DNA of 64,000 bases from Granulicatella elegans (lineage in GTDB: Bacteria; Bacillota; Bacilli; Lactobacillales; Aerococcaceae), in the NCBI RefSeq assembly GCF_020735385.1, contig NZ_CP085953.1, forward strand, positions 186,001-250,000, in the 5' to 3' direction. The notes beneath the pieces were generated by a model. The model searched no databases and was not told the DNA's origin. It saw only the letters and a program-made list of their open reading frames with translations. Every line of letters starts with the position of its first letter. Within the stretch, counting starts at the first letter, position 1. This document shows positions 12,889 to 51,606 of this stretch, piece after piece. Both the position numbers and the translations under genes were made by a program.

Positions 12889-15800
12889 TAACAAAAAATC
12901 GAAATTATGGCTAAAAACAAGAGTGAAATTTCGGCTAATTTTATTTTTTGGGTACCTGTATTAGGTAAAACTTTATTTCTGTTAGGTTCGGTTAAAGCGT
13001 TAACCAACTCCCTATTTTTCTCTGATGAAATTTTTTGTTCTTCTAACTCATTATTTTTCTTTAATTGATTTTCTGTACCATTTTCTATTTTTTCACTCTT
13101 ATCATTGCTTTCAACTGTTGATTCATAAATCAAGTATCTTACTCTATCTTCTACAGAAGGTTCAATAACTTGTTTTAACACGTATCGATTTATCTTTAAT
13201 TCATTTAATTGTGCATTAATATTTGTAGGATTAAAAAATGCCACTTTAATCTTGTTTAATTCTTTTTTTATTGTATATATTCCTTTTTCTTTTAAAACAA
13301 GATCATCCTCCAACTTCAACTCAGAGTCGTCATATTTAACAACGCCATAAATATTATTTGATTTATCATAAACAACTTGATTATTTTCTGAATTCTCAAT
13401 TACTACAATATCTTCTTTGATTACTTCTTCTGCAAATTCCTTATCATTTCTATTAGGATAAAGAATATATGCATAACTGTTTCTAAGCATATCGTGTGGT
13501 TGTTCAATTGTTAAAAATGTATTTTCTACACTCTCATCACTTTGAGTGTTATTGATATCTTTCCAAGCACCCTTCCTTGTTTCTTTTTTCACATTTAATG
13601 AAGTAGTGTTTATAAATTTGTATCCAATATTCATTTCTTTATTTGAAGATTTTAGGAAAATATTATTTACTTGTAATTCCATTTCAGTGCTATCTACTGT
13701 TTTCTCTTTGCCATCCACAATCACCTTGTAATCATCTTGATCCATACTGCGATTTCTAGAACTTCGCTTGATTTTTCTATTTTCAACAACAGTATATCCA
13801 TTTGTGCCACTTGTATCCTTCACACCTGCACCTAAGAATACTACTCTGTCTCCTAAGATAAACCAAGATTTTTTAGCACTCATTGTATTATCTAAGTTGG
13901 AAAAATCCATTGCTACAGTTCCGAATTGTTGATTTAAAGAAGTAGAACCAACAAATGAATTTTTCATTGTTGTCATTCCTTTACCTTTTTCTCTCTTTTT
14001 ATTATTTTCTGTTATCCCAGGCAACTTATACGGATCAACTGTAGCCCAGTAATCATCACTAAAATGACTCAAGTCATCATTATATAGATAAGAAACGCCA
14101 TCACTTGTATACCAACCTTTGGCATTTTCACCATTCATAAACTCATAGTTTTGAATCTTATCAGAATGCATACTAATCCCAAAAGCAAAACCACGTTCTT
14201 TATTGTAGTAGGCAACTTTATTCATATCATTATATAATTTCAAATAAGTATTTCTTGCAATTTCTCCCACTATATTATTGGATAAGAGATTTTCAAAAAG
14301 ATACACATCATAGAATGATTTTAATGATAAAAATGTATCATAATAATGATCCGATTTAACAATATCTTTTACAATCCCTTGTAATTTATTCTTTTCAGAT
14401 TGTTCACTTGCTTCAGCAATTCTCAAAATACCTCTTAATACTTCTACAGCGGCATAATGATCATTTTGAACTTTTCTACTAAGTGATCTTCCTCTTGTCA
14501 TATCCATCAATTCGCCTCTATAAATTAGCGGAAGAAAACCTTCATAAATCCAGTTATATAAAATTTTCAATTTATTTTGTTCAATTTTATAAGGGCTAGC
14601 TTGAATAACTGGAAGTAATTGAGAGAATCCATCAATAAGAACATTTCCATAAGCTCCTGTATAAGCAATATTCGTATGGTCAATATAAGAACCATCATAA
14701 TGGAAGCCTTCTCCTTCAGATACAAGTTCTAACACATTACTTACAGCACTGATTGCACTTTCTAATTTCTTATCATCTTCTAGTAAAATACCTTCAATAA
14801 TTTTTACCTTTCCTAAATCTGAAAGATTTCCTCCTACAGCTGTTTTTCCTCTATTTTGACTTACCATTATTTTTGATGGATCTGGAACCATTTTTGAAAC
14901 AGGTGATAAATATTTAGCAATCTCTTCTTTACTAAAATATTTATTCATAATCGTTAAAATATTATTGATTGCCCTAGGAGTACCAATTTCATAGTCCCAC
15001 CAATTCCCTTTAGACTCAGTTGTTACATTATAATAATACTCATTCATCAATTCCATACTATGTTTAACAATATTAATCACTTTTTTATCGTTATAGTACT
15101 TAGATTGAGAATTCGTTACAGCTTTGGCAATTTGTTCAAGCCGTCTATAAGTCTTCGTTAAATTAGTTGACTTGGAATAATCAGATACATCATCCCAAAT
15201 TTTTTTATCATCATTTTGAACTTTTGCAAGATAACTTTCTACATCTTTTTCATTACTTTTAAAAATTTCATTCATATAACTACTTTGACTAGAAAAAAAT
15301 TCATTTCCTGAAATCATCGTGTCCCATTTTTTTAAGAGAGAATCAAAAGTTTTATTAGATTCTTCAACAACTAAAGATACCACCTTATCTTTTTTTCCAA
15401 GTTCACTTACCATTAATTCTGTCGTTCCTATTTTTTTAGGAACAATAAATCCATCTTCCACTGAAGCAATACTATTATCTTTCACTTCATATTTGTAATT
15501 ACCAGGTAATAACCAACGTTTGTTCATACTTAATGTTATAGATTTATCAAACTCTTTTTCTTTTATCCCTTCAACTTCATTAGAAGTTGTCTTTTCCGAT
15601 TTTATAAGGCTCACATCATCAAAGTATGCTGTGCCAGTTCCTGTTTCATAAAACAACTCTAATCGAATCTTTACAATATCTTCACCGGAAACGAACTCTT
15701 CTGTAATTGTTGTCCAATCATGATCCCCATTTAGATTTTTAGAATACCATAAAGATGACTTTTGTTTATTATTGATATCGAAGGAAAGTATTCGAACACG

Positions 15801-16175
15801 AGCTCCTATATTAGACTTTAAATCCTCTGTTTTTATTCTTGCTGATAGAATATATTTTTGATTAGATTCTACAGTAATATCTTGTCCAACAACAGCTCTC
15901 ATTTCTGCTTCTGCTGACATTTGTAAAATACCATCATCTGTTACTTCGATATGATATTTATCTTTTTCACTTTTTGGAACCCAAGGATCTTTCCAATCTA
16001 TCGCAGCTTTTCCAGTCCACTTATTTTGCTTATCTTTTTTTAAATTAAAATCCCCGTTCTTAACAAGATTCTGATGAATAGTATCTTCTGCAAATATAGG
16101 ATAATTTCCTCTAAAAGCAACTACAGAACTCATTAAAAATAACAATACTAAGCCATACAGCCATCTCTTTTTCAT
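12888..16175 (-). CDS. Cell-surface polysaccharide lyase family 8 (hyaluronate lyase-like)
   Basis: This 1,095-residue secreted enzyme cleaves hyaluronate or chondroitin by beta-elimination. A signal peptide (MKKRWLYGLVLLFLMSSVVA) ends near residue 32. A carbohydrate-binding-like domain with NLVKNGDFNLKKD follows, then the PL8 alpha/alpha toroid with catalytic Asn in GNWWDYEIG near 390, His and Tyr in DGSYIDHTNIAYTGAYGN near 498-507 and Arg in RGRSLSRK near 563. The C-terminus has LPNTG near 1072 for sortase, but the tail ends after ISIFC without basic residues. One extra T in the T6 tract at 12893-12898 would restore a basic KKR tail ending at 12850. The GTG at 16178 is out-competed by the ATG at 16175. 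Confidence 0.93.
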   Translation of the reverse strand: MKKRWLYGLVLLFLMSSVVAFRGNYPIFAEDTIHQNLVKNGDFNLKKDKQNKWTGKAAIDWKDPWVPKSEKDKYHIEVTDDGILQMSAEAEMRAVVGQDITVESNQKYILSARIKTEDLKSNIGARVRILSFDINNKQKSSLWYSKNLNGDHDWTTITEEFVSGEDIVKIRLELFYETGTGTAYFDDVSLIKSEKTTSNEVEGIKEKEFDKSITLSMNKRWLLPGNYKYEVKDNSIASVEDGFIVPKKIGTTELMVSELGKKDKVVSLVVEESNKTFDSLLKKWDTMISGNEFFSSQSSYMNEIFKSNEKDVESYLAKVQNDDKKIWDDVSDYSKSTNLTKTYRRLEQIAKAVTNSQSKYYNDKKVINIVKHSMELMNEYYYNVTTESKGNWWDYEIGTPRAINNILTIMNKYFSKEEIAKYLSPVSKMVPDPSKIMVSQNRGKTAVGGNLSDLGKVKIIEGILLEDDKKLESAISAVSNVLELVSEGEGFHYDGSYIDHTNIAYTGAYGNVLIDGFSQLLPVIQASPYKIEQNKLKILYNWIYEGFLPLIYRGELMDMTRGRSLSRKVQNDHYAAVEVLRGILRIAEASEQSEKNKLQGIVKDIVKSDHYYDTFLSLKSFYDVYLFENLLSNNIVGEIARNTYLKLYNDMNKVAYYNKERGFAFGISMHSDKIQNYEFMNGENAKGWYTSDGVSYLYNDDLSHFSDDYWATVDPYKLPGITENNKKREKGKGMTTMKNSFVGSTSLNQQFGTVAMDFSNLDNTMSAKKSWFILGDRVVFLGAGVKDTSGTNGYTVVENRKIKRSSRNRSMDQDDYKVIVDGKEKTVDSTEMELQVNNIFLKSSNKEMNIGYKFINTTSLNVKKETRKGAWKDINNTQSDESVENTFLTIEQPHDMLRNSYAYILYPNRNDKEFAEEVIKEDIVVIENSENNQVVYDKSNNIYGVVKYDDSELKLEDDLVLKEKGIYTIKKELNKIKVAFFNPTNINAQLNELKINRYVLKQVIEPSVEDRVRYLIYESTVESNDKSEKIENGTENQLKKNNELEEQKISSEKNRELVNALTEPNRNKVLPNTGTQKIKLAEISLLFLAIISIFC

Positions 16176-28752: not shown

Positions 28753-29486
28753 TTATTTTAAAATACGAATCGTAATTGTACGACGTCCAAAATTATTTGC
28801 TTCTGCTAGTGTTGTAAAGTGAACATCAATTTTATTTCCAACAATTGCCCACCTGTATCAGCTGCACGAAATACTCCGTATCCTGGAATTTCAACCATAG
28901 TTCCTAAAGGAATTACTCGAGGATCTACTGCAATTACCATTGGGTCATTCACTAAATTTGTTCCATCTGCTGTATAATTTGATAATCCCGGCTCTGCGTA
29001 TGAATACGCTGTTGCTTCAACCGTTAATGTGTAACCTTCTGTTGATGAAGCTGTAGTAGTTTGTACTTCTTGTGAAGTGACTGTTTGCGGAGTTGGCTCT
29101 ACTGCTTTCATTTCTACAACTTCTGTATTATCTTCTGCTTTATAAGTATGCTCTTCTTCTTCCGTTTTCACGACTACTTCTTGTTTATCTGCAGAAAACT
29201 TAATCGTTGTTCCTGCATAAATTAAGTTAGCGTTTTGAATATCATTGACACGAATTAAATCTTCTAATGATACATCCATTGCTTCAGCAATAACAGATAA
29301 TGTATCACCATATTTAACTGTATACTCTTGTACTCCTTCATCATTATGAATAATTTCATCTTTTACTTCGTCTGTAGTACGTGCTACCCATCCATCAGCC
29401 TTAGCTGTTGAAGTTGTCATTCCTGAAATTCCTAGAAAAGCTACTGCGATTGTTGCCAACACCGTCTTCTTTAGTGTAAATTTCAT
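28753..29486 (-). pseudogene. LysM and 3D-domain cell-wall protein with a 1-base frameshift
   Basis: The secreted protein has a signal peptide (to about residue 30), a LysM peptidoglycan-binding domain (YTVKYGDTLSVIAEAMDVS, residues 57-100) and a C-terminal 3D domain like YocH/Rpf-type hydrolases. The 3D domain runs normally to AADTGG, then changes frame and ends at 28806 as QLLEIKLMFTLQH. One added base near 28848-28851 restores GGAIVGNKIDVHFTTLAEA and NNFGRRTITIRILK, with a stop at 28753. The original protein would be about 244 residues. As it stands the conserved end of the 3D domain is lost. Confidence 0.88.
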
Positions 29487-29565
29487 AAATATCCTTTCCG
29501 ACTCTCTACTAAAAATTTCGTTTCGAGAATCTACCGCTAAAAATTCCCAAATGCGGTTTTATTTG

Positions 29566-29768
29566 ATGTAACTACTGTAACATGAAAAAACAGCAAAATG
29601 TTGATTTCACGTGTTTTGTTAAGGCTCTTTAAATAAATTGACTTTTTTTGATATTTAGATTACAGAAAACTGATGCGAACATACGTTTTTCGTTACATTT
29701 GACATCTTTTTGTAACATTACCTTAAATTTCTCTTTAACTTTTGTTCGTATAAAATTGAAATGTTACA
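29566..29768 (-). promoter_or_regulatory. Upstream region with repeated TGTWAY half-sites
   Basis: On the minus strand TGTWAY-type hexamers occur at 29577-29582, 29659-29664, 29692-29697, 29712-29717 and 29763-29768. WalR (YycF) binds pairs of such hexamers before cell-wall hydrolase genes. The spacing is not the strict 5 bases in every case. Confidence 0.35.
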
Positions 29769-29822
29769 ACTTTGAAACCGGTTCACTTTCTAAAAGTGGC
29801 GTTTTTTGGTCGGAAAACAAAA

Positions 29823-30041
29823 AAAGCACCCTAAAAGGTGCCTTTAAAACTATATTCATTCTACAATTTTTAATGCTCTCCAAAAGCAAAAAATAAGCAC
29901 GGTTGGAAACTCTCCAACAGGAGCAAACGATTAGTTGTATTTTCACGACTAACTCCTCATTGTGCTTCTTAGGCTTATCTCTGAGGAACAGTTCTTAAAT
30001 TCTGCCAAGCAGTGTAATGTGCTTCAATTACACTTCTATAT
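29823..30041 (-). ncRNA. Candidate structured RNA, about 219 nt
   Basis: A promoter-like pair TTGTAT (30071-30076) and TATTCT (30048-30053) with a 17-base spacer faces the minus strand. About 219 bases later a strong terminator GCACC/GGTGC with T7 occurs (29824-29845). Between them a stem AAGCAC/GTGCTT encloses two hairpins, one with TTAGT/ACTAA arms and one GTTGGA/TCCAAC. No ORF with a ribosome site fits. I could not match it to tmRNA, RNase P, 6S RNA or a known riboswitch. It could be a free small RNA or a terminated leader of the LysM-3D gene. Confidence 0.5.
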
Positions 30042-30188
30042 CACTATAGAATATTTTTAACTAGGTGAACATACAAAACAGCCCCATTTAACTGGTCTTG
30101 TTGTTCGTACTCATATTAATACGTTTTTCTCCTAATTTCAATCAGAAGATAGTATGAATCAATACACAGAAAGTCACCCCCACCGCCA

Positions 30189-30210
30189 CTAGAAAGATGA
30201 GGGTGATTGA
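30189..30210. repeat. Direct repeat, left boundary of the PTS-peptidase operon
   Basis: This 22-base stretch (CTAGAAAGATGAGGGTGA...) equals 37522-37543 at 20 of 22 positions. The bases before it also match the second copy, so both derive from one terminator-like sequence. Confidence 0.6.
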
Positions 30211-30212
30211 GA

Positions 30213-31400
30213 CTATTTATAAAAATCATACATTGTTTTTATTCTATTAAATGCTTCTTCCAGCTTATATCTTTGCATCCCTATGTTTAATCGTACAAAT
30301 CCTTCAGCATTAGACACAAAATAGCTACCTAATACTACTGTAAGGTTTGCATATTGAAAAAAAGTACTAATTTCTTCTTCTGTCTTCAAAAAATCCCCTA
30401 CATAAATCCACACTAAGAAGGAAGATTCTGCCTTCATCAATTTAAATTTAGGTAAGTTCTTTTGAATAAAATCTTCAACATAATTATGATTTTCTTCAAT
30501 GTAAGTTACCATTTCTTCTAACCATTCATGTTCATATCTATATGCAGCTTCTATTGCTGGAACTGCAAAAACATGAGGGGAAGTGACATAATTTGCAGAT
30601 AACCTAGCATAAATTTTCTCCCGCAAACTTTCATTTGGGATAACTATATAGGATGTCTTCAACCCACCTAAATTAAACCCTTTATTTGGAGACACACATA
30701 AAACACTTGAATCCATTACCTTATCATTTGCATTCCATAAACTAATAAATTTACTATTTGAAAAAACAACGTCTCGATGAATTTCATCAGAAATCAAATA
30801 TACTTGATTTCTTTTACATATGTTCCCCAATTGATTCAACTCTTGAGCTGTCCAGACTCTCCCAGACGGATTTTGTGGATTACACAGTATAAACAACTTT
30901 ACATTATACTTTATTATGTCAGATTCCATTTTAGCGAAATCTATATAATAACGATTTTCTGCCAAAATCAAATCGTTACAGATTAATTTTCTTCCGTTAT
31001 TAATTACAGATTCGGCAAAGGGAGCATAAGCAGGTGTATGAATCATTACATAATCACCTACATCAGTTAATGCTTGGACAATATTATGCAACGCTGATAT
31101 CGTCCCAAAAGTTAGACGCACCCATTCTTTCTTTATATCTAAGTTAAAATATTTTTTGTTCCAATTTATAACAGCATCATAGAAACTATCTGGGACAAAA
31201 GTATAGCTATAATCTGGCATTAAGGCTCTGTTTACTAACGCCTCCTTAATAGAAGGAGCGCATTCAAAATCAATATCAGCTAAATCCATAGCAATAATAT
31301 TATTACCTCTTGGATTTTTTTCTTTAAGTAAATCAGGATTCCACTTTCTAGTTCCTGTTATGCTCCTATCAAATTCCTTATCAAACTGATTCATTTTCAT
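30213..31400 (-). CDS. MalY/PatB-family C-S lyase or aminotransferase
   Basis: This 395-residue PLP enzyme of fold type I resembles MalY/PatB beta-C-S lyases, which split cystathionine or cysteine S-conjugates into thiol, pyruvate and ammonia. DLADIDFECAPSIKEAL near residue 40 replaces the aminotransferase N-terminus, the PLP Lys lies in VSPNKGFNLGGLKTSY near residue 235, and NPQNPSGRVW is the Asn motif. It starts at the ATGA overlap with the M24 peptidase gene and is last in the operon. Next to two peptidases it may process a cysteine conjugate released from a peptide. Confidence 0.85.
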   Translation of the reverse strand: MKMNQFDKEFDRSITGTRKWNPDLLKEKNPRGNNIIAMDLADIDFECAPSIKEALVNRALMPDYSYTFVPDSFYDAVINWNKKYFNLDIKKEWVRLTFGTISALHNIVQALTDVGDYVMIHTPAYAPFAESVINNGRKLICNDLILAENRYYIDFAKMESDIIKYNVKLFILCNPQNPSGRVWTAQELNQLGNICKRNQVYLISDEIHRDVVFSNSKFISLWNANDKVMDSSVLCVSPNKGFNLGGLKTSYIVIPNESLREKIYARLSANYVTSPHVFAVPAIEAAYRYEHEWLEEMVTYIEENHNYVEDFIQKNLPKFKLMKAESSFLVWIYVGDFLKTEEEISTFFQYANLTVVLGSYFVSNAEGFVRLNIGMQRYKLEEAFNRIKTMYDFYK

Positions 31401-32452
31401 CCCACCATTATTAATGATTTATCACTTTTCGTAAGCGCCTCTCCTCTATCCGATAATACGCAAACAACATCTTCAATTCTTACTCCACCTAATTTTGGAA
31501 TATAAATTCCTGGTTCACAAGTCAAAACCATATTTTCACGTAAAACAGTATTACTAGTAGCATTCATCATCGGATAATCTCCACCGATTCCTATTCCATG
31601 ACCTAATCCATGTGTGAAAAACTCTCCATATCCAGCTTCAGTTATAATATTTCTTGCTATTTCATCTACTTTATTTGCGATTACTTCGGGTTGAACAAAA
31701 TCAACAGAAGCTTGTTGAGCTTTTTGTACAACATTATAGATATTTTCTAATTCTTTCTCTACAAATTCTATTCCTACGGTTCTAGTCATATCAGATTGAT
31801 AATGATCTAAGACTATACCAAAATCAATAGTTACAAGCTCACCTTTTTGAATAACTTTATCTGTAGGTCTTCCGTGTGGCAGAGAACCTCTCCAACCACT
31901 CGCTACAATAGGTTCAAATGATAATCTATCAGCACCCATTTTAAAACATTCATTGTAAATAATCCCTACTAATTCTTTTTCTGTCATCCCCACTCTAATC
32001 TGAGGTAAAACACGCAATAAAATTTGATCTGTTAATTCACAAGAAATTCGAATTTTACGAATTTCCTCTTCGTCTTTAATCATTCTGATTTTTACAATTT
32101 CTTCTCCTATTTGGTGAATTTCAAATTTTTCAGAAAGTAATAAATATTTTTGAATAGAAATCCCTTCATTTTCAACTCCTATTTTTATGAAGTTATTCTT
32201 TTTAAAAAACTCAATAATAGGTGTATAGTAATCTCTATTAGGTAAAACCTTATTAACAACATTTTCGATTCTACAAATTTCATTTTGGTATCGTCCATCC
32301 ATGAATTGAATACATTCATCTAACGTAATTACCAAAATCGAGCCACTTCCTGTTACAGCTCCCAAATATTGTTTAGTAGTTTTATTCGTAATTACTATTG
32401 CATCTAACTCTTTGGTTTTTATTAACTTTCTAATATTGTCAATTTTATTCAT
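31397..32452 (-). CDS. Xaa-Pro peptidase-like M24 metallopeptidase
   Basis: The 351-residue protein has a creatinase-like N-terminal domain and the pita-bread M24 catalytic domain. The five metal ligands are visible: Asp in TIDFGIVLD, Asp in SDMTRTVG, His in THGLGHGIG, Glu in LTCEPGIYI and Glu in GGVRIEDVV. It probably cleaves X-Pro dipeptides or short peptides in the cytoplasm. A GTG at 32461 is possible, but AGGTG lies 6 bases before the ATG at 32452. The ribosome site overlaps the EIIC stop, so translation is coupled to the permease. Confidence 0.9.
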   Translation of the reverse strand: MNKIDNIRKLIKTKELDAIVITNKTTKQYLGAVTGSGSILVITLDECIQFMDGRYQNEICRIENVVNKVLPNRDYYTPIIEFFKKNNFIKIGVENEGISIQKYLLLSEKFEIHQIGEEIVKIRMIKDEEEIRKIRISCELTDQILLRVLPQIRVGMTEKELVGIIYNECFKMGADRLSFEPIVASGWRGSLPHGRPTDKVIQKGELVTIDFGIVLDHYQSDMTRTVGIEFVEKELENIYNVVQKAQQASVDFVQPEVIANKVDEIARNIITEAGYGEFFTHGLGHGIGIGGDYPMMNATSNTVLRENMVLTCEPGIYIPKLGGVRIEDVVCVLSDRGEALTKSDKSLIMVG

Positions 32453-32461
32453 ATTACTCAC

Positions 32462-33784
32462 CTAAAAATCTAAATCTAAATCATCTAAAAGATTTTCTTC
32501 TTCTTTTGTAAATATTTCTTTGTTATTTTGTGTTAACGCTGCAATTTCATCTTGTTTTTCCATAATTTTAAAGAATGGCCAATAAATAGCAACTGATGCC
32601 ACTAATTGAATTGCGCATACAATAATTGTTCGCCAATCTCCATTTGTTAAAAATCCTTCTAAGAAAATACCTACATAAGGAGGGTCAAAAATTGGTTTAT
32701 TTAAAAGTCCCCAGTGCATCAAAAACATTGGAAACGTACCAATAATAGCACCACCAAAAACGTGAGGAATAAACATAATTGGATTCAAAATAATTGGTGC
32801 ACCAAATAAAATAGGTTCATTAATACCAAATAAAGCTGGGAAAAGAGAAACTTTTCCGATTTGTTGATATCTCTTATTTTTTGATAGCATACAAGCTACA
32901 ATACATCCAATACTAATACCACATCCTGTAAATCCAAAGAATGCACTTGAAGTTCCTGCAGTAAAAAAGTGAGGAAGAGGTTCACCTGCTTGCATTGCTG
33001 CTATGTTTTCAGCAATAAAAGCTACCATTATCGGACGAGTAATTGGGCTAAATACTGATGAATGAATACCAAAGAAGAAAATTGTACAAATCGCAAAATT
33101 TAACAATAAAACTGCCCAAGGATTATCCATACTACCGACTAACGGAGTTAAAAATCGTGTTAAAATTGTTGGAGGTAATTCTCCAATAACATTTAAAAAT
33201 ACAAAACGTAAAGCAATGAATGTGCCACCTACAATTAAAGTTACTGGAATTAGTTCAAAAGATTGAGATACAAAATCAGGAACACCTTCAGGCATTCGAA
33301 TCGTTAAATTACGTTTTTTACAGAAATTATATAACTCCACTGTAGCTAAGGCTACTAACATGGCTGTAAATAAACCTCTAGCTCCCAAATTTTTCAACAT
33401 CAAATGACCTTGTTCGTTAAACGTTGCAACCATAAATAAAAATGCAAATGTAGCTAAAGTCATACAACCTGGAATATATAATTTATAGTATTTACCTAAG
33501 TTATAAGAAATAGCTAAACACGCATACAATCCAATCAATCCTATTGAAAGAGTTACTGGCAAATCAAATAATTCTGCGTTACTAGTAATAAATTGACTAA
33601 TTGCATTTTCTTCACCTAACATGTTAGGTAAAGCTGGTAATATTGCAAAAAAACTTCCTAGAATTGTAAATGGTGTCATCGCAACCATTCCCGCTTTAAT
33701 AGCGCTAAGATGTGGTTGATTATCAACTTTTCTTGCAAGAGGCAAGAAAAAACGATTCATGAATTCTGAAAATTTATCAAACAT
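32462..33784 (-). CDS. PTS EIIC, lactose/cellobiose family
   Basis: This 440-residue polytopic permease has the EIIC fold of cellobiose/chitobiose transporters, with about ten membrane segments. KAGMVAMTPFTILGSFFAI near residue 30 and the LFGINEPILFGAPIILNPIMFIP loop near residue 288 are signatures of the family. The start at 33784 follows AAAGGAG by 8-9 bases. The gene lies between EIIB and the M24 peptidase. There is no 6-phospho-beta-glucosidase in the operon, so the usual sugar assignment is doubtful. Confidence 0.93.
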   Translation of the reverse strand: MFDKFSEFMNRFFLPLARKVDNQPHLSAIKAGMVAMTPFTILGSFFAILPALPNMLGEENAISQFITSNAELFDLPVTLSIGLIGLYACLAISYNLGKYYKLYIPGCMTLATFAFLFMVATFNEQGHLMLKNLGARGLFTAMLVALATVELYNFCKKRNLTIRMPEGVPDFVSQSFELIPVTLIVGGTFIALRFVFLNVIGELPPTILTRFLTPLVGSMDNPWAVLLLNFAICTIFFFGIHSSVFSPITRPIMVAFIAENIAAMQAGEPLPHFFTAGTSSAFFGFTGCGISIGCIVACMLSKNKRYQQIGKVSLFPALFGINEPILFGAPIILNPIMFIPHVFGGAIIGTFPMFLMHWGLLNKPIFDPPYVGIFLEGFLTNGDWRTIIVCAIQLVASVAIYWPFFKIMEKQDEIAALTQNNKEIFTKEEENLLDDLDLDF

Positions 33785-33799
33785 CACAGTCACTCCTTT

Positions 33800-34138
33800 T
33801 TATTTTTGTTTCGATAATTGATGTTTTTTATACGTTACTAAAGCTAATTTCATTACTGTCGCTCCATCCATTTGACCATATACATCTTTATCAATTACAG
33901 CACATGGAATATCTAATGGATCAATAACTGAATGAATAAAATCTATTTTATGGGCAATTTGTGGTCCTATTAACACAATATCCCAATTTTCTACAATACC
34001 TTCTAAAGAATCTGCAGGAATTGCTGTAAAATCAAAGTCTTCTTCATTTAATTTTTCACTTTGTTTAACAACCTTCTTCATATTTTGCATTAACATATTA
34101 GTTGAAAATCCACCTGCACAACATAATAAAATTTTCAT
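33800..34138 (-). CDS. PTS EIIB, lactose/cellobiose family
   Basis: The 112-residue cytoplasmic protein carries the phospho-Cys in MKILLCCAGGFSTNMLM; a P-loop-like CxxGxST motif follows it directly. Length and fold match CelA/ChbB. It is 15 bases upstream of EIIC and 15 after EIIA. Confidence 0.93.
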   Translation of the reverse strand: MKILLCCAGGFSTNMLMQNMKKVVKQSEKLNEEDFDFTAIPADSLEGIVENWDIVLIGPQIAHKIDFIHSVIDPLDIPCAVIDKDVYGQMDGATVMKLALVTYKKHQLSKQK

Positions 34139-34153
34139 AAAATCAAATCCTTT

Positions 34154-34462
34154 CTATTTATTATCATCTTCAAAAACATCTATTAAAGCTTCTATTAAGT
34201 CTCTCGCAAGTTGACTAGTCATATAATGGTCTTGTGCATGAACCATTAATAACGTAACTGCATCTTTAGCTTCTGGGTCTAATGCCTGAGCAATAATTTT
34301 AGTTTGTGCATTATGAGCCTCTAAATCAATCAATCTAGATTCTTTAAGAAGCTCCTTTGCTTTTTTAAAATCTTTATTTTTCACACATTTTAATGCTTCA
34401 AATGATTTCATTTTACTTTCACCAGAGTTTGCTATAATTTGTATAATTTCCTGTTCATTCAT
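34154..34462 (-). CDS. PTS EIIA, lactose/cellobiose family
   Basis: This 102-residue helical IIA protein forms trimers that pass phosphate from HPr to EIIB. The active His is in LLMVHAQDHYMTS near residue 80. LEAHNAQTKIIAQAL is the other conserved helix. It is placed between the M42 peptidase and EIIB in the operon. Confidence 0.93.
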   Translation of the reverse strand: MNEQEIIQIIANSGESKMKSFEALKCVKNKDFKKAKELLKESRLIDLEAHNAQTKIIAQALDPEAKDAVTLLMVHAQDHYMTSQLARDLIEALIDVFEDDNK

Positions 34463-34479
34463 TTATTTCAAATCCTTTC

Positions 34480-35520
34480 TTAAAAGTTTTCAAACTCAAA
34501 AATATTTTTTTCCGTTAAATCTTTCAACAGCCTATAATATAGCTCTTCCATTAAATCTACATCACTTGAACTAACCAAAGATGTTGTAGAATGTCCGTAT
34601 CTCACTGGAACAATCGTTACCAAAGTCGGTTTCCCTTGATTCACTTTATGAGCTTCTCCACCATCCGTTCCACCCATATTAAACATATCTTCTTGAAGTG
34701 GAATTTTATGATTTGATGCAAAATCTCTGAAATGATTTGCCATTTTTCGATTTGGCGAAAGAGTTCTATCAAATAAAGTAATCATAGGCCCCTTTCCAAC
34801 TTGTCGTTTATTAGAATGGTCTCGTTTTAATTGGTTTGAAGCGGTAGCGACATCAATTACATACACAATATCTGGATTTATTAATTGAGTAGCCGTTTTA
34901 GCACCTCTAATTCCCACTTCTTCGCTACTTGTAAATGCAAAATACAAATTATATGGTAAAGAAACATTTTCTAATTTTTCAGCTAAAGAGCATAAAATAT
35001 AGCAAGCTAATCGATTATCCATTGCTTTTCCAGAATATATATTTTCCACTGAATATTTTTGGAAGTTCGTTGAAAATGTAACCATATCTCCTATACTAAT
35101 CCCGATTTTTTCAACTTCTTCTTGACTATTAGCACCTACATCTGCAAATACATAATCAACAATATTATCTTTATACTCTGCAAATGTAATCCCTGGTATT
35201 TTTTTTCTATCCCTCGTTGTCACTCTAACATGTTGATAAGATTGACCATAATTTTGTACTCCCCCTACCTTCATTAGATGAAGTAAACCAAAAGGATCTA
35301 CACTTCTCACCAAAAATCCAACCTCATCCATATGAGCACACAACATAACACTTTTTGTGTTTTTTGCATTGACTTTCCCAAAAATAATACTTCCTAATCC
35401 ATCTACTTGCTCGCTTAATTCTAAATGAGCTAATCTTTTCCTGATAAGTTCTCTCACTTCCTCTTCATCACCAGCCAAGGCATCTGCATTTGAAAGTTTA
35501 CCCAAAAATTGTTCATCCAT
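34480..35520 (-). CDS. M42-family metallo-aminopeptidase
   Basis: This 346-residue enzyme has the M42 glutamyl aminopeptidase/deblocking fold. Metal ligands are visible: His in CAHMDEVGFL, Asp in GKAMDNRLACY, Glu-Glu in TSSEEVGIRGA, Asp in YVIDVA and His in YGHSTTSLVS. It would form a cytoplasmic dodecameric aminopeptidase. The E. coli frv operon also pairs a PTS with an M42-type protein (FrvX) of unknown role. The ATG at 35520 with AAAGGAG 8 bases upstream is better than the GTG at 35529. Confidence 0.9.
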   Translation of the reverse strand: MDEQFLGKLSNADALAGDEEEVRELIRKRLAHLELSEQVDGLGSIIFGKVNAKNTKSVMLCAHMDEVGFLVRSVDPFGLLHLMKVGGVQNYGQSYQHVRVTTRDRKKIPGITFAEYKDNIVDYVFADVGANSQEEVEKIGISIGDMVTFSTNFQKYSVENIYSGKAMDNRLACYILCSLAEKLENVSLPYNLYFAFTSSEEVGIRGAKTATQLINPDIVYVIDVATASNQLKRDHSNKRQVGKGPMITLFDRTLSPNRKMANHFRDFASNHKIPLQEDMFNMGGTDGGEAHKVNQGKPTLVTIVPVRYGHSTTSLVSSSDVDLMEELYYRLLKDLTEKNIFEFENF

Positions 35521-35533
35521 TAAACTCACTCCT

Positions 35534-37384
35534 TTAAAGATATATTTTTATTAATTTTATAAACTCTTGAAAATTTTGACATTTTGACAACTCACTCACC
35601 AATGATCTATGTTGCATTAGCCCATACAATTTTTTTGATAAATATTGATGCAACTCTACTTGCCCTGATTTTAAAGCTAACATGAACACTACTTTAATTT
35701 TCTTTTGCTTATAAAATATAGGTTTTGGCAACAATGTTACACTGATAATATTTTCTGAACTATTCATATTCATTGGGTGAGGGATAGCAATTCCATTTTC
35801 ATAGACTGTGGATACATAATTTTCTCTTTCTAAAATAGAATTTTCATACCCTCGAATATTCATGCTACTTTCTATTTTTCCAGCCACATGATGCAATAAT
35901 TTTTCATAATCTTCAAAATTATTAATTGAAAAATACTCTGAAGATATCATATCTATAAACTTTTCGTTACTATCTACTAACGTTCCTAGTTCCGTTAATA
36001 ATTCAAGATTATTTTGAATGCTAAAATAATCTAATTCTCCTAATATTTCTCCAATTTGGATGACTGGACAATTAATATTTAAATCTAATGGTGTAATAGA
36101 AAACAATAATGTTGGATTAAACTCCGTGATTTCTTCTTTTTGGTAAATTGTGAAACTTTTTATTTCAGAATTTGGAAAAATTCTAGTGAATTTTAAAGAC
36201 ATTAATTGTGCAATTCCTCCTCCTGAACTACAAACCAATCCTATTCTGTAATATTTTCTATTTCTTCTTTCGTTTTGTTTTTCATAAGAAACCGCCATAT
36301 GAGAAGTTAAGTAGCCTATTTCTTCCTGATTAATAACAACCTGATACTTACTTTCAATTCTTTTAACAACAAAAATCGCAGCATTCATTATTGCCGGAAA
36401 TTCTCTTTCCATAGTTTTGATAATAAAATTTTCCTGGAAATCATTGACTTGTTTTCTCTCTAACATAAACGCTATATGTAACTGAATCATTCGCATAAAA
36501 TCAATATCATTCACAAAATTTGTATTAAACTTATCATCCACTTCTTTATACAATATGTATAAAAACGTTTTTAACTCTGTTTGTTGAAATAACCGATTAG
36601 ATTGATAGTCTAATAACAATTGATACAAAAGATAAGAATATGAATCACAGTGTTTAATCAATTCAAATTTATTTAAAATATTCCTTATAACAATAATTTC
36701 TTCCATGTCCAACTTCTCTAGAGATAAACCATTTTCTTGATAATAAATTAATATTATCTCTAACCATCTTTGAATTAACTTAGCTATTTCTCCATCTATT
36801 TTCAATTGATATGCTTGACAAATCAGCACAGTACACTGCGTTATTTCTGATTCAATTTTTGGAGTAATAATTCCCTGTATTTTTTCAACAATATAAGATT
36901 GCAAACCTTTAGAATATTTTTCCAAAAGCTTAAATTTGTCATATAAATTTCCAGTAATTTTTACCCCATAATGTGATTTTCTTTCTAAGAACAATCCTTC
37001 ACTTTCTAATCGCTCTGCTATTTTTATAGTATCTTTTTTTACCTGTCCAATACTAATCGAGAAAATTTCTGCTAATTGTTTATTAGTTACAAAATTATTA
37101 TGTAATAATAGAAAAACAATAATCGAATGTATCCTATTATTTTTACCTTCAAAACGTTCCTTCGACCATTCCTCTAGTGTCATTCTATATTGATCCATAT
37201 CTTCAATTACTAAGTAATAACCTCTAGTTTTTGAACGATTAATATTAAAAGATAAAGATTCTTGATTGATAGATTTGATATCTTCTCGAATGGTTCTCGT
37301 AGAAACTGTTAATTTACTAGCTAATTGCTCTAATGAAACAAAATTTTCTTTTTCTAAAATTTTTACTAATTCTCTTTTCCTCAT
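35534..37384 (-). CDS. BglG/MtlR-type transcriptional regulator with PRD and PTS domains
   Basis: The 616-residue protein starts with a DeoR/Mga-like winged helix (KILEKENFVSLEQLASKLTV) and a second HTH near residue 90. Two PTS regulation domains follow (residues about 165-390), then an EIIB-like domain (YRIGLVCSSGGGIAQL near 383) and an EIIA-like domain with phospho-His in GIAIPHPMNMN near 553. It is phosphorylated by the PTS and probably activates this operon when the substrate is being imported. It lies 13 bases upstream of the M42 gene and is the first gene of the unit. Confidence 0.92.
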   Translation of the reverse strand: MRKRELVKILEKENFVSLEQLASKLTVSTRTIREDIKSINQESLSFNINRSKTRGYYLVIEDMDQYRMTLEEWSKERFEGKNNRIHSIIVFLLLHNNFVTNKQLAEIFSISIGQVKKDTIKIAERLESEGLFLERKSHYGVKITGNLYDKFKLLEKYSKGLQSYIVEKIQGIITPKIESEITQCTVLICQAYQLKIDGEIAKLIQRWLEIILIYYQENGLSLEKLDMEEIIVIRNILNKFELIKHCDSYSYLLYQLLLDYQSNRLFQQTELKTFLYILYKEVDDKFNTNFVNDIDFMRMIQLHIAFMLERKQVNDFQENFIIKTMEREFPAIMNAAIFVVKRIESKYQVVINQEEIGYLTSHMAVSYEKQNERRNRKYYRIGLVCSSGGGIAQLMSLKFTRIFPNSEIKSFTIYQKEEITEFNPTLLFSITPLDLNINCPVIQIGEILGELDYFSIQNNLELLTELGTLVDSNEKFIDMISSEYFSINNFEDYEKLLHHVAGKIESSMNIRGYENSILERENYVSTVYENGIAIPHPMNMNSSENIISVTLLPKPIFYKQKKIKVVFMLALKSGQVELHQYLSKKLYGLMQHRSLVSELSKCQNFQEFIKLIKIYL

Positions 37385-37510
37385 CGTTCCCTCCTAACTC
37401 CAGTTATTCTCATCAGATGGTATCTTTATTATACGACAGCGTTTTCTAATCAAACAGTTAATTTTTTTCTATATGATATGGAAAAAAGTAGACGAATTCA
37501 TAAAAAATAC

Positions 37511-37537
37511 CCTCATCTCTACTTGAAAGATGAGGGT
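37511..37537. terminator. Terminator-like hairpin between the regulator and rlmN
   Basis: CCCTCATCT and AGATGAGGG form a 9-bp stem with loop CTACTTGAA. On the minus strand it is followed by TATTTTTTA, so it can end the rlmN transcript. Confidence 0.75.
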
Positions 37538-37543
37538 GAATGA
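37522..37543. repeat. Direct repeat, right boundary of the PTS-peptidase operon
   Basis: This is the second copy of the repeat at 30189-30210 (20 of 22 bases the same). It forms the 3' arm and flank of the hairpin at 37511-37537. Confidence 0.6.
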
Positions 37544-37593
37544 ATTTATTTTAGTGATTTATTCGTCAAAACATAAACGAAATCTTATTTGTC

Positions 37594-49659: not shown

Positions 49660-49664
49660 AATGA

Positions 49665-49736
49665 TGACCCGTACGGGACTCGAACCCGTGTTACCGCCGT
49701 GAAAGGGCGGTGTCTTAACCGCTTGACCAACGGGCC
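49665..49736 (-). tRNA. tRNA-Glu (UUC), distal copy
   Basis: The cloverleaf starts GGCCCGTTGG; the anticodon loop is CTTTCAC. It is the last gene of the array and is identical to 49996-50067. CCA is not encoded. Confidence 0.95.
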
Positions 49737-49750
49737 AAGAAAAAATTTAA

Positions 49751-49821
49751 AGCGGGTGACGAGAATCGAACTCGCGACAACAGCTTGGAAGGCTGTAGTT
49801 TTACCACTAAACTACACCCGC
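49751..49821 (-). tRNA. tRNA-Gly (UCC), distal copy
   Basis: GCGGGTGTAG acceptor start and anticodon loop CTTCCAA. It is identical to 50293-50363. Confidence 0.95.
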
Positions 49822-49831
49822 ATTCTATAAA

Positions 49832-49904
49832 CGGTCCCGACGGGAATCGAACCCGCGATCTCCTGCGTGACAGGCAGGCATGTTAACCCCTACACCACGG
49901 AACC
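49832..49904 (-). tRNA. tRNA-Asp (GUC), distal copy
   Basis: GGTTCCGTGG start, anticodon loop CTGTCAC. It is identical to 50454-50526. Confidence 0.95.
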
Positions 49905-49917
49905 ATATTTTAGGGAA

Positions 49918-49990
49918 TGGAGGTTAACGGGATCGAACCGCTGACCCCCTGCTTGTAAGGCAGGTGCTCTCCCAGCTGAGCTAAACCTCC
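49918..49990 (-). tRNA. tRNA-Val (UAC), distal copy
   Basis: GGAGGTTTAGC start, anticodon loop CTTACAA. It is identical to 51520-51592. Confidence 0.95.
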
Positions 49991-49995
49991 ATCTA

Positions 49996-50067
49996 TGACC
50001 CGTACGGGACTCGAACCCGTGTTACCGCCGTGAAAGGGCGGTGTCTTAACCGCTTGACCAACGGGCC
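49996..50067 (-). tRNA. tRNA-Glu (UUC), proximal copy
   Basis: Anticodon loop CTTTCAC in a normal cloverleaf. It has the same sequence as the copy at 49665-49736. Confidence 0.95.
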
Positions 50068-50082
50068 AGAATTTTAAAAGAA

Positions 50083-50170
50083 CGGAGAAGGAGGGATTTG
50101 AACCCTCGCGCCGGTTTCCCGACCTACACCCTTAGCAGGGGCGCCTCTTCAGCCTCTTGAGTACTTCCCC
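50083..50170 (-). tRNA. tRNA-Ser (GCU)
   Basis: A class II tRNA with a long variable arm. The anticodon loop is TGCTAAG. Confidence 0.93.
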
Positions 50171-50205
50171 AATATCCAATGCAATATTTCGATAAAAAAT
50201 ATCTA

Positions 50206-50279
<74 letters not shown>

Positions 50280-50292
50280 TTAACTTCCAAAA

Positions 50293-50363
50293 AGCGGGTG
50301 ACGAGAATCGAACTCGCGACAACAGCTTGGAAGGCTGTAGTTTTACCACTAAACTACACCCGC
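50293..50363 (-). tRNA. tRNA-Gly (UCC), proximal copy
   Basis: Anticodon loop CTTCCAA. It is the same as 49751-49821. Confidence 0.95.
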
Positions 50364-50372
50364 ATTATATAA

Positions 50373-50445
50373 TGGCTCGGGACAGAATCGAACTGCCGAC
50401 ACTTTGAGCTTCAATCAAATGCTCTACCAACTGAGCTACCGAGCC
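50373..50445 (-). tRNA. tRNA-Phe (GAA)
   Basis: GGCTCGGTAGC start, anticodon loop TTGAAGC. Confidence 0.95.
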
Positions 50446-50453
50446 TAGAATTA

Positions 50454-50526
50454 CGGTCCCGACGGGAATCGAACCCGCGATCTCCTGCGTGACAGGCAGG
50501 CATGTTAACCCCTACACCACGGAACC
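50454..50526 (-). tRNA. tRNA-Asp (GUC), proximal copy
   Basis: Anticodon loop CTGTCAC. It is the same as 49832-49904. Confidence 0.95.
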
Positions 50527-50536
50527 TTGGTAGAAA

Positions 50537-50609
<73 letters not shown>

Positions 50610-50621
50610 ATAACATTAGTA

Positions 50622-50711
50622 AGGAGGATAAGGGATTCGAACCCTTGCACGCTTTTACACGCCTGACGGTTTTCAAGACCGTTCCCTTCAGCCGGACTTG
50701 GGTAATCCTCC
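50622..50711 (-). tRNA. tRNA-Ser (UGA)
   Basis: A class II tRNA of 90 bases with a long variable arm and anticodon loop CTTGAAA. The discriminator appears to be T, while serine tRNAs usually have G. Confidence 0.92.
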
Positions 50712-50726
50712 GTGAATATAGGTCAA

Positions 50727-50800
50727 TGGACCTTGTAGGACTCGAACCTACGACCGGACGGTTATGAGCCGTCTGCTCTAACCACCTGAGCTAAAGGTCC
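50727..50800 (-). tRNA. tRNA with CAU anticodon, probably tRNA-Ile2 (lysidine)
   Basis: GGACCTTTAGC start and loop CTCATAA. The body resembles Bacillus tRNA-Ile2, whose C34 is changed to lysidine by TilS, and not the elongator Met beside it. Confidence 0.85.
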
Positions 50801-50812
50801 AAGCTCAATTAA

Positions 50813-50886
50813 TAGCGGCGAAGGGGATCGAACCCCCGACCTCCCGGGTATGAACCGGACGCTCTAGCCAGCTGAGCTACACCGCC
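50813..50886 (-). tRNA. Elongator tRNA-Met (CAU)
   Basis: GGCGGTGTAGC start with loop TTCATAC, which matches the Bacillus elongator type. Confidence 0.88.
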
Positions 50887-50904
50887 ATAATTATATAATC
50901 TTAA

Positions 50905-50977
50905 TGGAGACTAGCGGGATCGAACCGCTGACCTCCTGCGTGCAAAGCAGGCGCTCTCCCAGCTGAGCTAAGCCCCC
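50905..50977 (-). tRNA. tRNA-Ala (UGC)
   Basis: Anticodon loop TTTGCAC. The acceptor has the G3-T70 wobble pair that identifies alanine tRNAs. Confidence 0.95.
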
Positions 50978-50986
50978 ATAAAAAAA

Positions 50987-51060
50987 TCGGGAATACAGGA
51001 TTCGAACCTACGACCCCTTGGTCCCAAACCAAGTGCTCTACCAAGCTGAGCTAATTCCCG
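50987..51060 (-). tRNA. tRNA-Pro (UGG)
   Basis: CGGGAATTAGC start, anticodon loop TTTGGGA. Confidence 0.95.
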
Positions 51061-51065
51061 ATATA

Positions 51066-51139
51066 TGCACCCAACAGGAGTCGAACCTGTAACCGCTTGA
51101 TTCGTAGTCAAGTACTCTATCCAATTGAGCTATGGGTGC
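51066..51139 (-). tRNA. tRNA-Arg (ACG)
   Basis: GCACCCATAGC start, anticodon loop CTACGAA. A34 would be read as inosine after TadA action. Confidence 0.95.
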
Positions 51140-51164
51140 AAATTTTATTCAATTATATTGAAAA

Positions 51165-51250
51165 TGCCGAGGGCCGGGGTCGAACCGGCACGGTCATCAC
51201 TGACCGCAGGATTTTAAGTCCTGTGCGTCTGCCAATTCCGCCACCCCGGC
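51165..51250 (-). tRNA. tRNA-Leu (UAA)
   Basis: Class II, 86 bases, anticodon loop CTTAAAA. Confidence 0.95.
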
Positions 51251-51275
51251 ATAGGCCATGGTTTATCATTGGCAA

Positions 51276-51347
51276 AGCGGAAGACGGGGTTCGAACCCGC
51301 GACCCCCACCTTGGCAAGGTGGTGTTCTACCACTGAACTACTTCCGC
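51276..51347 (-). tRNA. tRNA-Gly (GCC)
   Basis: GCGGAAGTAG start, anticodon loop TTGCCAA. Confidence 0.95.
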
Positions 51348-51363
51348 AATTTATTCGTTTAAA

Positions 51364-51436
51364 TGCCGGCTAAAGGACTTGAACCCTCGACCCTCTGATT
51401 ACAAATCAGATGCTCTACCAACTGAGCTAAGCCGGC
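51364..51436 (-). tRNA. tRNA-Thr (UGU)
   Basis: GCCGGCTTAGC start, anticodon loop TTTGTAA. Confidence 0.95.
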
Positions 51437-51438
51437 TA

Positions 51439-51511
51439 TGAGTGATACAGGGCTCGAACCTGTGACCCTCTGATTAAAAGTCAGATGCTCTACCAACTGA
51501 GCTAATCACTC
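51439..51511 (-). tRNA. tRNA-Lys (UUU)
   Basis: GAGTGATTAGC start, anticodon loop CTTTTAA. Only two bases separate it from tRNA-Thr. Confidence 0.95.
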
Positions 51512-51519
51512 ATGATTCA

Positions 51520-51592
51520 TGGAGGTTAACGGGATCGAACCGCTGACCCCCTGCTTGTAAGGCAGGTGCTCTCCCAGCTGAGCTAAACCTCC
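51520..51592 (-). tRNA. tRNA-Val (UAC), proximal copy
   Basis: First tRNA after 5S rRNA; anticodon loop CTTACAA. It is the same as 49918-49990. Confidence 0.95.
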
Positions 51593-51606
51593 ATAATATT
51601 TGAAAA

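Follow-up and report, generated by a model that had tools for sequence, protein, structure and literature searches.

The closest described relative of the operon analyzed here, a seven-gene cluster in a stretch of 64,000 nucleotides of the Granulicatella elegans genome (contig NZ_CP085953.1, positions 186,001 to 250,000; hereafter the window), is the malY cluster of L. sakei LT-13 (LACBS_00568-00576), in which the same genes follow in the same order: a PRD regulator, an aminopeptidase, the phosphotransferase system (PTS) enzymes IIA, IIB, and IIC (EIIA, EIIB, and EIIC), a second aminopeptidase, and MalY (PMC5845896). By its published gene list, the L. sakei cluster is this operon, although it carries an extra gene for an RDD-family membrane protein, and its nearest RDD-bearing relatives (e.g., L. 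fuchuensis, locus L096) have a type II lyase, whereas that of the window is of type I (see below). The L. sakei MalY (Ls-MalY) was purified and found to be a pyridoxal phosphate (PLP) enzyme with beta-lyase activity on L-cysteine, cystine, and cystathionine; it is also a broad amino acid racemase, most active on alanine, which needs a conserved lysine and tyrosine and was assayed with 50 mM substrate for 60 min (PMC5845896). The cluster was neither treated as a conserved system nor given a proposed substrate in that study (PMC5845896). The gene set is already drawn in this one paper; of its recurrence we found no description in the open-access literature searched, and nothing specific to it under its annotation names.

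Parts of the operon have counterparts in Escherichia coli. In fryBC-ypdFE-fryA, a PTS stands beside M24 (YpdF) and M42 (YpdE) peptidases, the closest solved relatives of both window peptidases; ypdF and ypdE lie between fryC and fryA, and the order IIB-IIC-M24-M42 is that of one of the two main orders reported below, but FryC is of another (fructose) EIIC family, with no BLAST match to the window EIIC, and the operon has no lyase. In malXY, the gene for a PatB/MalY beta-lyase adjoins that for MalX, but MalX belongs to a different EII family, again with no BLAST match to the window EIIC, and peptidases are absent from the operon. The uncharacterized frvABXR operon combines a PTS and an M42 protein (FrvX, beside FrvAB) with a regulator of its own, but its EII is of another family and it lacks both M24 and lyase. 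The original prediction for the window, made by a model from the DNA letters and translated open reading frames, had taken frv as its precedent, rightly as to the pairing of a PTS with M42, but missed the closer fryBC-ypdFE and malXY. Two further routes are similar in part. The alf-2 operon of L. casei, for fucosyl-GlcNAc-Asn, serves glyco-amino acid catabolism, includes a peptidase gene, and separates sugar from amino acid by means of an enzyme other than a glycosidase, but it relies on a major facilitator superfamily permease rather than a PTS and on a glycosylasparaginase rather than a PLP lyase; the glycosylasparaginase gene, asnA2, adjoins pepV, and asnA2 but not pepV is needed for fucosyl-GlcNAc-Asn (PMC6960285). 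The Cys-Gly-3M3SH route of S. hominis leads from transport through a peptidase to a PatB-type lyase, with pyruvate and ammonia as products, but uses the peptide transporter DtpT and involves no sugar; in the same work, PatB genes were stated not to sit in amino acid gene clusters or operons (PMC7385124). Judged by family membership, the window operon unites elements of the E. coli fry-ypd, mal, and frv operons with a lactose-family PTS.

The G. elegans operon lies on the minus strand at 30213-37384 and encodes, in transcription order, a PRD regulator, M42, EIIA, EIIB, EIIC, M24, and a PatB/MalY-type lyase (Table 1), with successive gaps of 4, 17, 15, 6, and 0 bases and a 4-base overlap at the last junction. 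Pfam and NCBIfam confirmed the family of every gene and revealed no glycosidase among the seven. The active sites of all the operon enzymes are intact, including the M42 and M24 ligands, the PLP lysine and the tyrosine, the EIIA histidine, the EIIB cysteine, and the EIIC histidine and glutamate. In the source genome, a single 1.89-Mb contig, the only GH1 and the only GH4 gene each adjoin another EIIC, hundreds of kilobases from the operon. The original prediction of seven tightly packed genes without a glycosidase was accordingly borne out in both respects.

The combination of PTS, M42, M24, and lyase genes recurs over three phyla, an outcome that the original prediction had named as support for the system. 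Using the window EIIC as the query against 395 Lactobacillales genomes (E below 1e-90), we found it in 21 genomes, from 13 of the 80 genera, and at all 20 other loci (45-86% identity) the partner genes lay alongside, one locus being without M24. A wider profile search of genome contigs, with an alignment of 16 EIICs as the query, yielded at least 80 named loci, which together with the window and locus L030 make up a set of 82; the true spread is larger. The loci come from Lactobacillales, Clostridia, Erysipelotrichia, Coriobacteriia, and Vibrionaceae, and their hosts comprise Enterococcus, Streptococcus, Lactococcus, several lactobacilli, Listeria grayi, Bacillus, Clostridium, Clostridioides difficile, Peptacetobacter, Romboutsia, Terrisporobacter, Erysipelotrichia, Olsenella/Olegusella (Actinomycetota), and Vibrio and Photobacterium (Pseudomonadota). 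EIIC and M42 are present at all 82 loci, EIIB at 80, EIIA and the lyase at 79 each, M24 at 77, and a match to the regulator model at 74; contig ends explain several of the gaps (L102, L129, and L096), one lyase gap and one M24 gap among them. Two gene orders predominate, PRD-M42-A-B-C-M24-lyase and PRD-A-B-C-M24-M42-lyase, and at the Vibrio loci the lyase and EIIA genes are divergent from B-C-M24-M42. The PRD regulator is the first gene in Bacillota and Actinomycetota loci, and a different Mga/PRD-type regulator adjoins the Vibrionaceae loci (Pfam, two loci). An eighth operon gene, for an RDD-family membrane protein of about 200 amino acids, occurs at 17 of the 80 named loci (e.g., L096:3149-3790 and L088:13210-13866). 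In lactobacilli it lies in the EIIC-M24 gap, whereas in Erysipelotrichia, Olsenella, and some Clostridium it follows the lyase gene.

The linkage is confined to one EIIC clade. As controls, 40 further lactose-family EIIC loci of that order, with a single locus taken per genome, were treated identically. They had M42 or the lyase in no case, M24 in one, and GH1/GH4 in 16, and the control EIICs scored 186-288 bits against the clade profile, versus more than 600 bits for the complete clade EIICs of the named loci. Because the controls score far lower and mostly lack the partners, the clade is discrete and its partners are specific to it, and the control loci lead us to reject chance linkage of the PTS with the peptidases and lyase. 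No GH1 or GH4 gene was found within 6 kb of the clade EIIC at any of the 80 named loci; the GH1/GH4 matches seen all lie farther away, and a nearby phospho-glycosidase of these two families was therefore rejected. Company of phospho-glycosidases and fortuitous peptidase linkage, which the original prediction had set against its own proposal, are thus not what this clade displays. The recurrence of the gene set probably marks an overlooked system in at least three phyla.

The window EIIC passes the subfamily cut-off of the lactose/cellobiose-family model TIGR00410 (252.8 bits; cut-off 236) and reaches none of the equivalog cut-offs for the cellobiose (TIGR00359; 252.8 versus 434.45 bits), lactose (TIGR00394; 182.8 versus 614.4 bits), and N,N'-diacetylchitobiose (PRK10297; 115.1 versus 760 bits) EIICs. 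A plain cellobiose, lactose, or chitobiose permease was rejected on these grounds, and of the original description as a cellobiose-type PTS only the family membership survives. Its sole relative in the PDB is Bacillus cereus ChbC (3QNQ), with His250 and Glu334 of which, presumably the catalytic residues, His244 and Glu326 of the window EIIC align. Where ChbC-type proteins have PWT, the window protein has FDPPY, of which PPY is almost invariant in the clade. We take the tryptophan of PWT to stack, in ChbC, on the sugar; a substrate with a non-sugar second half would agree with the loss of this residue, although the alignment at this point is uncertain. Among the other PTS proteins, His75 of EIIA is kept in 79/79 alignment rows and Cys7 of EIIB in 80/80. 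An ordinary disaccharide PTS, with a phospho-glycosidase encoded elsewhere and with peptidases and lyase carried for nitrogen and sulfur supply under merely shared regulation, would agree with the plain lactose/cellobiose-family character of EIIA, EIIB, and EIIC, with the retained ChbC catalytic residues, and with the presence of one GH1 and one GH4 gene in the genome. We nevertheless judge it improbable, as both genes adjoin other EIICs, the linkage of peptidases and lyase is near-perfect over three phyla and absent at control loci, and the PWT of ChbC-type proteins has given way to the PPY of the clade.

Both peptidases have relatives in the fry-ypd operon. The M42 protein passes the equivalog cut-off for YpdE (PRK09961; 418.7 bits, cut-off 412), is closer to YpdE (270 bits) than to FrvX (205 bits), and has the YpdE homologue SF2450 (1YLO) as its closest solved structure; its metal ligands and catalytic glutamate are invariant across the alignment of operon loci. 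The M24 protein stays below the YpdF equivalog cut-off (PRK09795; 243.1 bits, cut-off 393), with YpdF (5CNX) as its closest solved structure and with metal ligands invariant in 77/77 rows. The lyase is a fold-type I PLP enzyme according to Pfam and NCBIfam, in which Lys240 and Tyr125, the counterparts of Lys233 and Tyr123 in Ls-MalY, are invariant in 79/79 rows. Its best NCBIfam model is that of the PatB C-S lyase (TIGR04350), so that the original assignment to MalY/PatB agrees with the model and the key residues, although the score of 339.3 bits falls just below the subfamily cut-off of 340, which three of its closest operon relatives (L030, L031, and L033) pass. We regard the protein as a predicted PatB/MalY-type C-S lyase, the beta-lyase activity having been measured, by others, only in the L. 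sakei homologue.

A substrate that combines a sugar, a peptide, and cysteine or serine is the simplest account of an operon with a PTS, two peptidases, and a lyase but no glycosidase. In our judgment it is an evenly balanced proposition that the operon forms a catabolic module, spread horizontally, whose substrate is a sugar-linked peptide or amino acid. EIIA, EIIB, and EIIC, going by their family, would import the compound and phosphorylate its sugar; M42 would then take off N-terminal residues, with the M24 X-Pro peptidase handling proline bonds that block M42, to leave a phospho-glycosyl amino acid whose amino group is free; and the PLP lyase would beta-eliminate the cysteine or serine side chain, yielding pyruvate and ammonia together with either a thio-sugar phosphate or a sugar phosphate. 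The sequence of peptidase first and PatB-type lyase second has a precedent in the S. hominis route for Cys-Gly-3M3SH (PMC7385124). Expression would be set by the PRD regulator and, in many hosts, also by CcpA. The lyase would occupy the place of the 6-phospho-glycosidase of ordinary PTS operons: with the sugar on the eliminated side chain, it would itself free the sugar, and the lack of a glycosidase would be accounted for. This stricter version, in which glycosylated serine or cysteine peptides are imported and trimmed, and a PLP beta-lyase in lieu of a 6-phospho-glycosidase frees the sugar phosphate (or 1-thio-sugar phosphate) by beta-elimination, is put forward tentatively and is doubtful as it stands. 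Of the original proposal, a glycosylated or sugar-linked peptide or a cysteine S-conjugate split to a thiol plus pyruvate, the substrate class is still a good reading, whereas thiol plus pyruvate has become one of several outcomes, beside which a serine-O-linked sugar or a racemase role is also possible.

Elsewhere in the same genome, outside the window at about 491.6-500.1 kb of the contig (L186:2573-11079), lies a second PTS-peptidase operon, with lactose-family EIIA, EIIB, and EIIC, a GrdB-like protein, two M42 proteins, an Asparaginase_2 family enzyme, a PepV-like M20 protein, CutC, and DUF7916. Asparaginase_2 is the family of glycosylasparaginases. This operon may serve the use of glycosylated asparagine or a similar compound, and its parallel design would support a sugar-linked peptide or amino acid as the substrate of the window operon.

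Regulation bears on the choice between carbon and sulfur as the gain. In the regions 5' of the first gene at 66 loci, sites resembling the catabolite-responsive element (cre) numbered 8 for exact matches (0.2 expected) and 31 when up to one mismatch was allowed (7.5 expected), related genomes being counted in both cases; such an enrichment is as expected for a carbon-source operon. It disfavors a scheme in which the import concerns a cysteine S-conjugate, a thiol or S-adduct of the mycothiol or bacillithiol kind, whose sugar is a mere handle, with the peptidases cutting the amides around the cysteine and the lyase freeing the thiol for a gain of sulfur and nitrogen. PatB-family enzymes are cysteine S-conjugate lyases, Ls-MalY acts on such sulfur amino acids as those named above, and amide bonds and glucosamine would account for peptidases and PTS alike, but the known pathways for these thiols use special amidases and not M42 or M24, and we hold the scheme to be unlikely.

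The breadth of Ls-MalY suggests yet another role, in which the PLP enzyme is mainly a broad racemase or transaminase-like enzyme acting on residues set free from an imported glycopeptide, for instance a piece of cell wall, that contains D- or unusual amino acids, and the sugar is removed by a general enzyme elsewhere. Ls-MalY does racemize many amino acids by means of the lysine and tyrosine that are invariant here too, but given the high substrate concentration and long incubation of the assay, this may be a side reaction; moreover, M42 and M24 enzymes are known as L-specific and the operon holds no murein-specific gene, which together make this role rather improbable.

Several points weigh against a sugar-linked peptide catabolized in the manner proposed. 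A sugar-peptide conjugate is only a candidate substrate for EIIC, and because Ls-MalY is also a racemase, some reaction other than that of a lyase may be what matters; in the literature searched, no beta-elimination of glycosylated serine or cysteine by a PatB-family enzyme is reported. The lyase is absent at two Photobacterium loci, and M24 at four loci where the neighboring genes are present, so that, barring supply from another source, neither can be called strictly essential. The glycosidase search near the loci covered the GH1 and GH4 families, other families not having been searched systematically. Quick M42 and M24 trees (FastTree, few outgroups) suggest exchange of these partners too, and hence that the set as a whole has not generally been inherited together. 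Finally, some of the genomes behind the cre counts are related, and the cre-like match of the window itself is weak, with two mismatches. As to what stands at the incomplete loci, a 418-amino acid gene beside the Photobacterium loci was considered as a substitute lyase and rejected, being an adenylosuccinate synthetase, and a Clostridium metagenome-assembled locus without M24 (L114) has downstream an M17 leucyl aminopeptidase gene (14581-16041), possibly a stand-in.

The history of the operon appears to be one of transfer and replacement. The operon lyases fall into two deep types, I (30 loci, including the window) and II (49 loci), in a quick tree with outgroups from Lactobacillales only, which places E. 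coli MalY inside type II as the sister of the operon lyases from Vibrio (51-54% identity); the window lyase shares 28.6% identity with E. coli MalY. Each type needs two changes on the EIIC tree, and trees with one change were seen in 0/200 bootstraps; on these trees, a lyase of one type has given way to one of the other at least once, with its slot kept. Only Ser237, Leu247, and Ser274 are common to both types and unlike most non-operon PatB, and a shared residue signature pointing to a phosphate-binding pocket was rejected as too weak. Of seven genomes in the genus, only two encode the EIIC; the identity is 52%, and the two proteins fall in separate parts of the EIIC tree. In the window, the operon fills the space from rlmN to the LysM/3D-domain gene (window 29487-37593). 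This slot is variable in the genus: one relative has ABC-transporter-like genes there, and another has a metal P-type ATPase next to an ArsR-like regulator (both by eye). Given this slot, the exchange of lyase and partners, and the divergence of the two genomes, the operon has a patchy distribution and has apparently spread horizontally, with selection for the whole set.

Table 1. Features of the operon region in the window
Feature	Position	Strand	Basis
PRD regulator: HTH_11, PRD, and PTS_EIIA_2 (fructose/mannitol type, C-terminal) domains; operon gene 1	35534..37384	-	Pfam
M42 metallo-aminopeptidase, YpdE-like	34480..35529	-	Pfam M42; NCBIfam PRK09961, 418.7 bits
PTS EIIA, lactose/cellobiose family; active-site motif His75 and His79	34154..34462	-	Pfam PTS_IIA
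PTS EIIB, lactose/cellobiose family; phospho-acceptor Cys7	33800..34138	-	Pfam PTS_IIB
PTS EIIC, discrete clade in the lactose/cellobiose family	32462..33793	-	TIGR00410, 252.8 bits; clade tree
M24 peptidase, X-Pro dipeptidase/aminopeptidase type, YpdF-like	31397..32461	-	Pfam M24
Predicted PLP-dependent PatB/MalY-type C-S beta-lyase, type I among operon lyases	30213..31400	-	TIGR04350, 339.3 bits; tree
Intergenic region: rlmN terminator (37537-37509) and presumed operon promoter	37385..37593	-	Promoter: TATAAT near 37430, by eye

Upstream of the operon, rlmN ends in a clear terminator; the TATAAT of the presumed promoter was noticed by eye only and is not among the picks of the promoter scan. 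On the other side, the LysM/3D-domain protein (28806-29486) stops abruptly after AADTGG, and the rest of the 3D domain, ANNFGRRTITIRILK, can be read in a different frame just beyond the stop (28755-28866), so that a frameshift in the gene as sequenced here is probable. Elsewhere in the window, 22 tRNA genes are clustered on the minus strand at 49663-51593.

If the proposed function is true, a nutrient route overlooked so far joins the PTS repertoire, in many genera and habitats. It would also tie together the E. coli malXY, ypdEF with fryBC, and frvABX genes, which have no agreed substrate, in that relatives of their products share one conserved operon, making the function testable. If the lyase frees the sugar, this would be a new means by which a PTS pathway splits the bond between sugar and amino acid, and the logic of a lyase in place of a glycosidase might also explain the orphan malXY, fry-ypd, and frv operons of E. 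coli.

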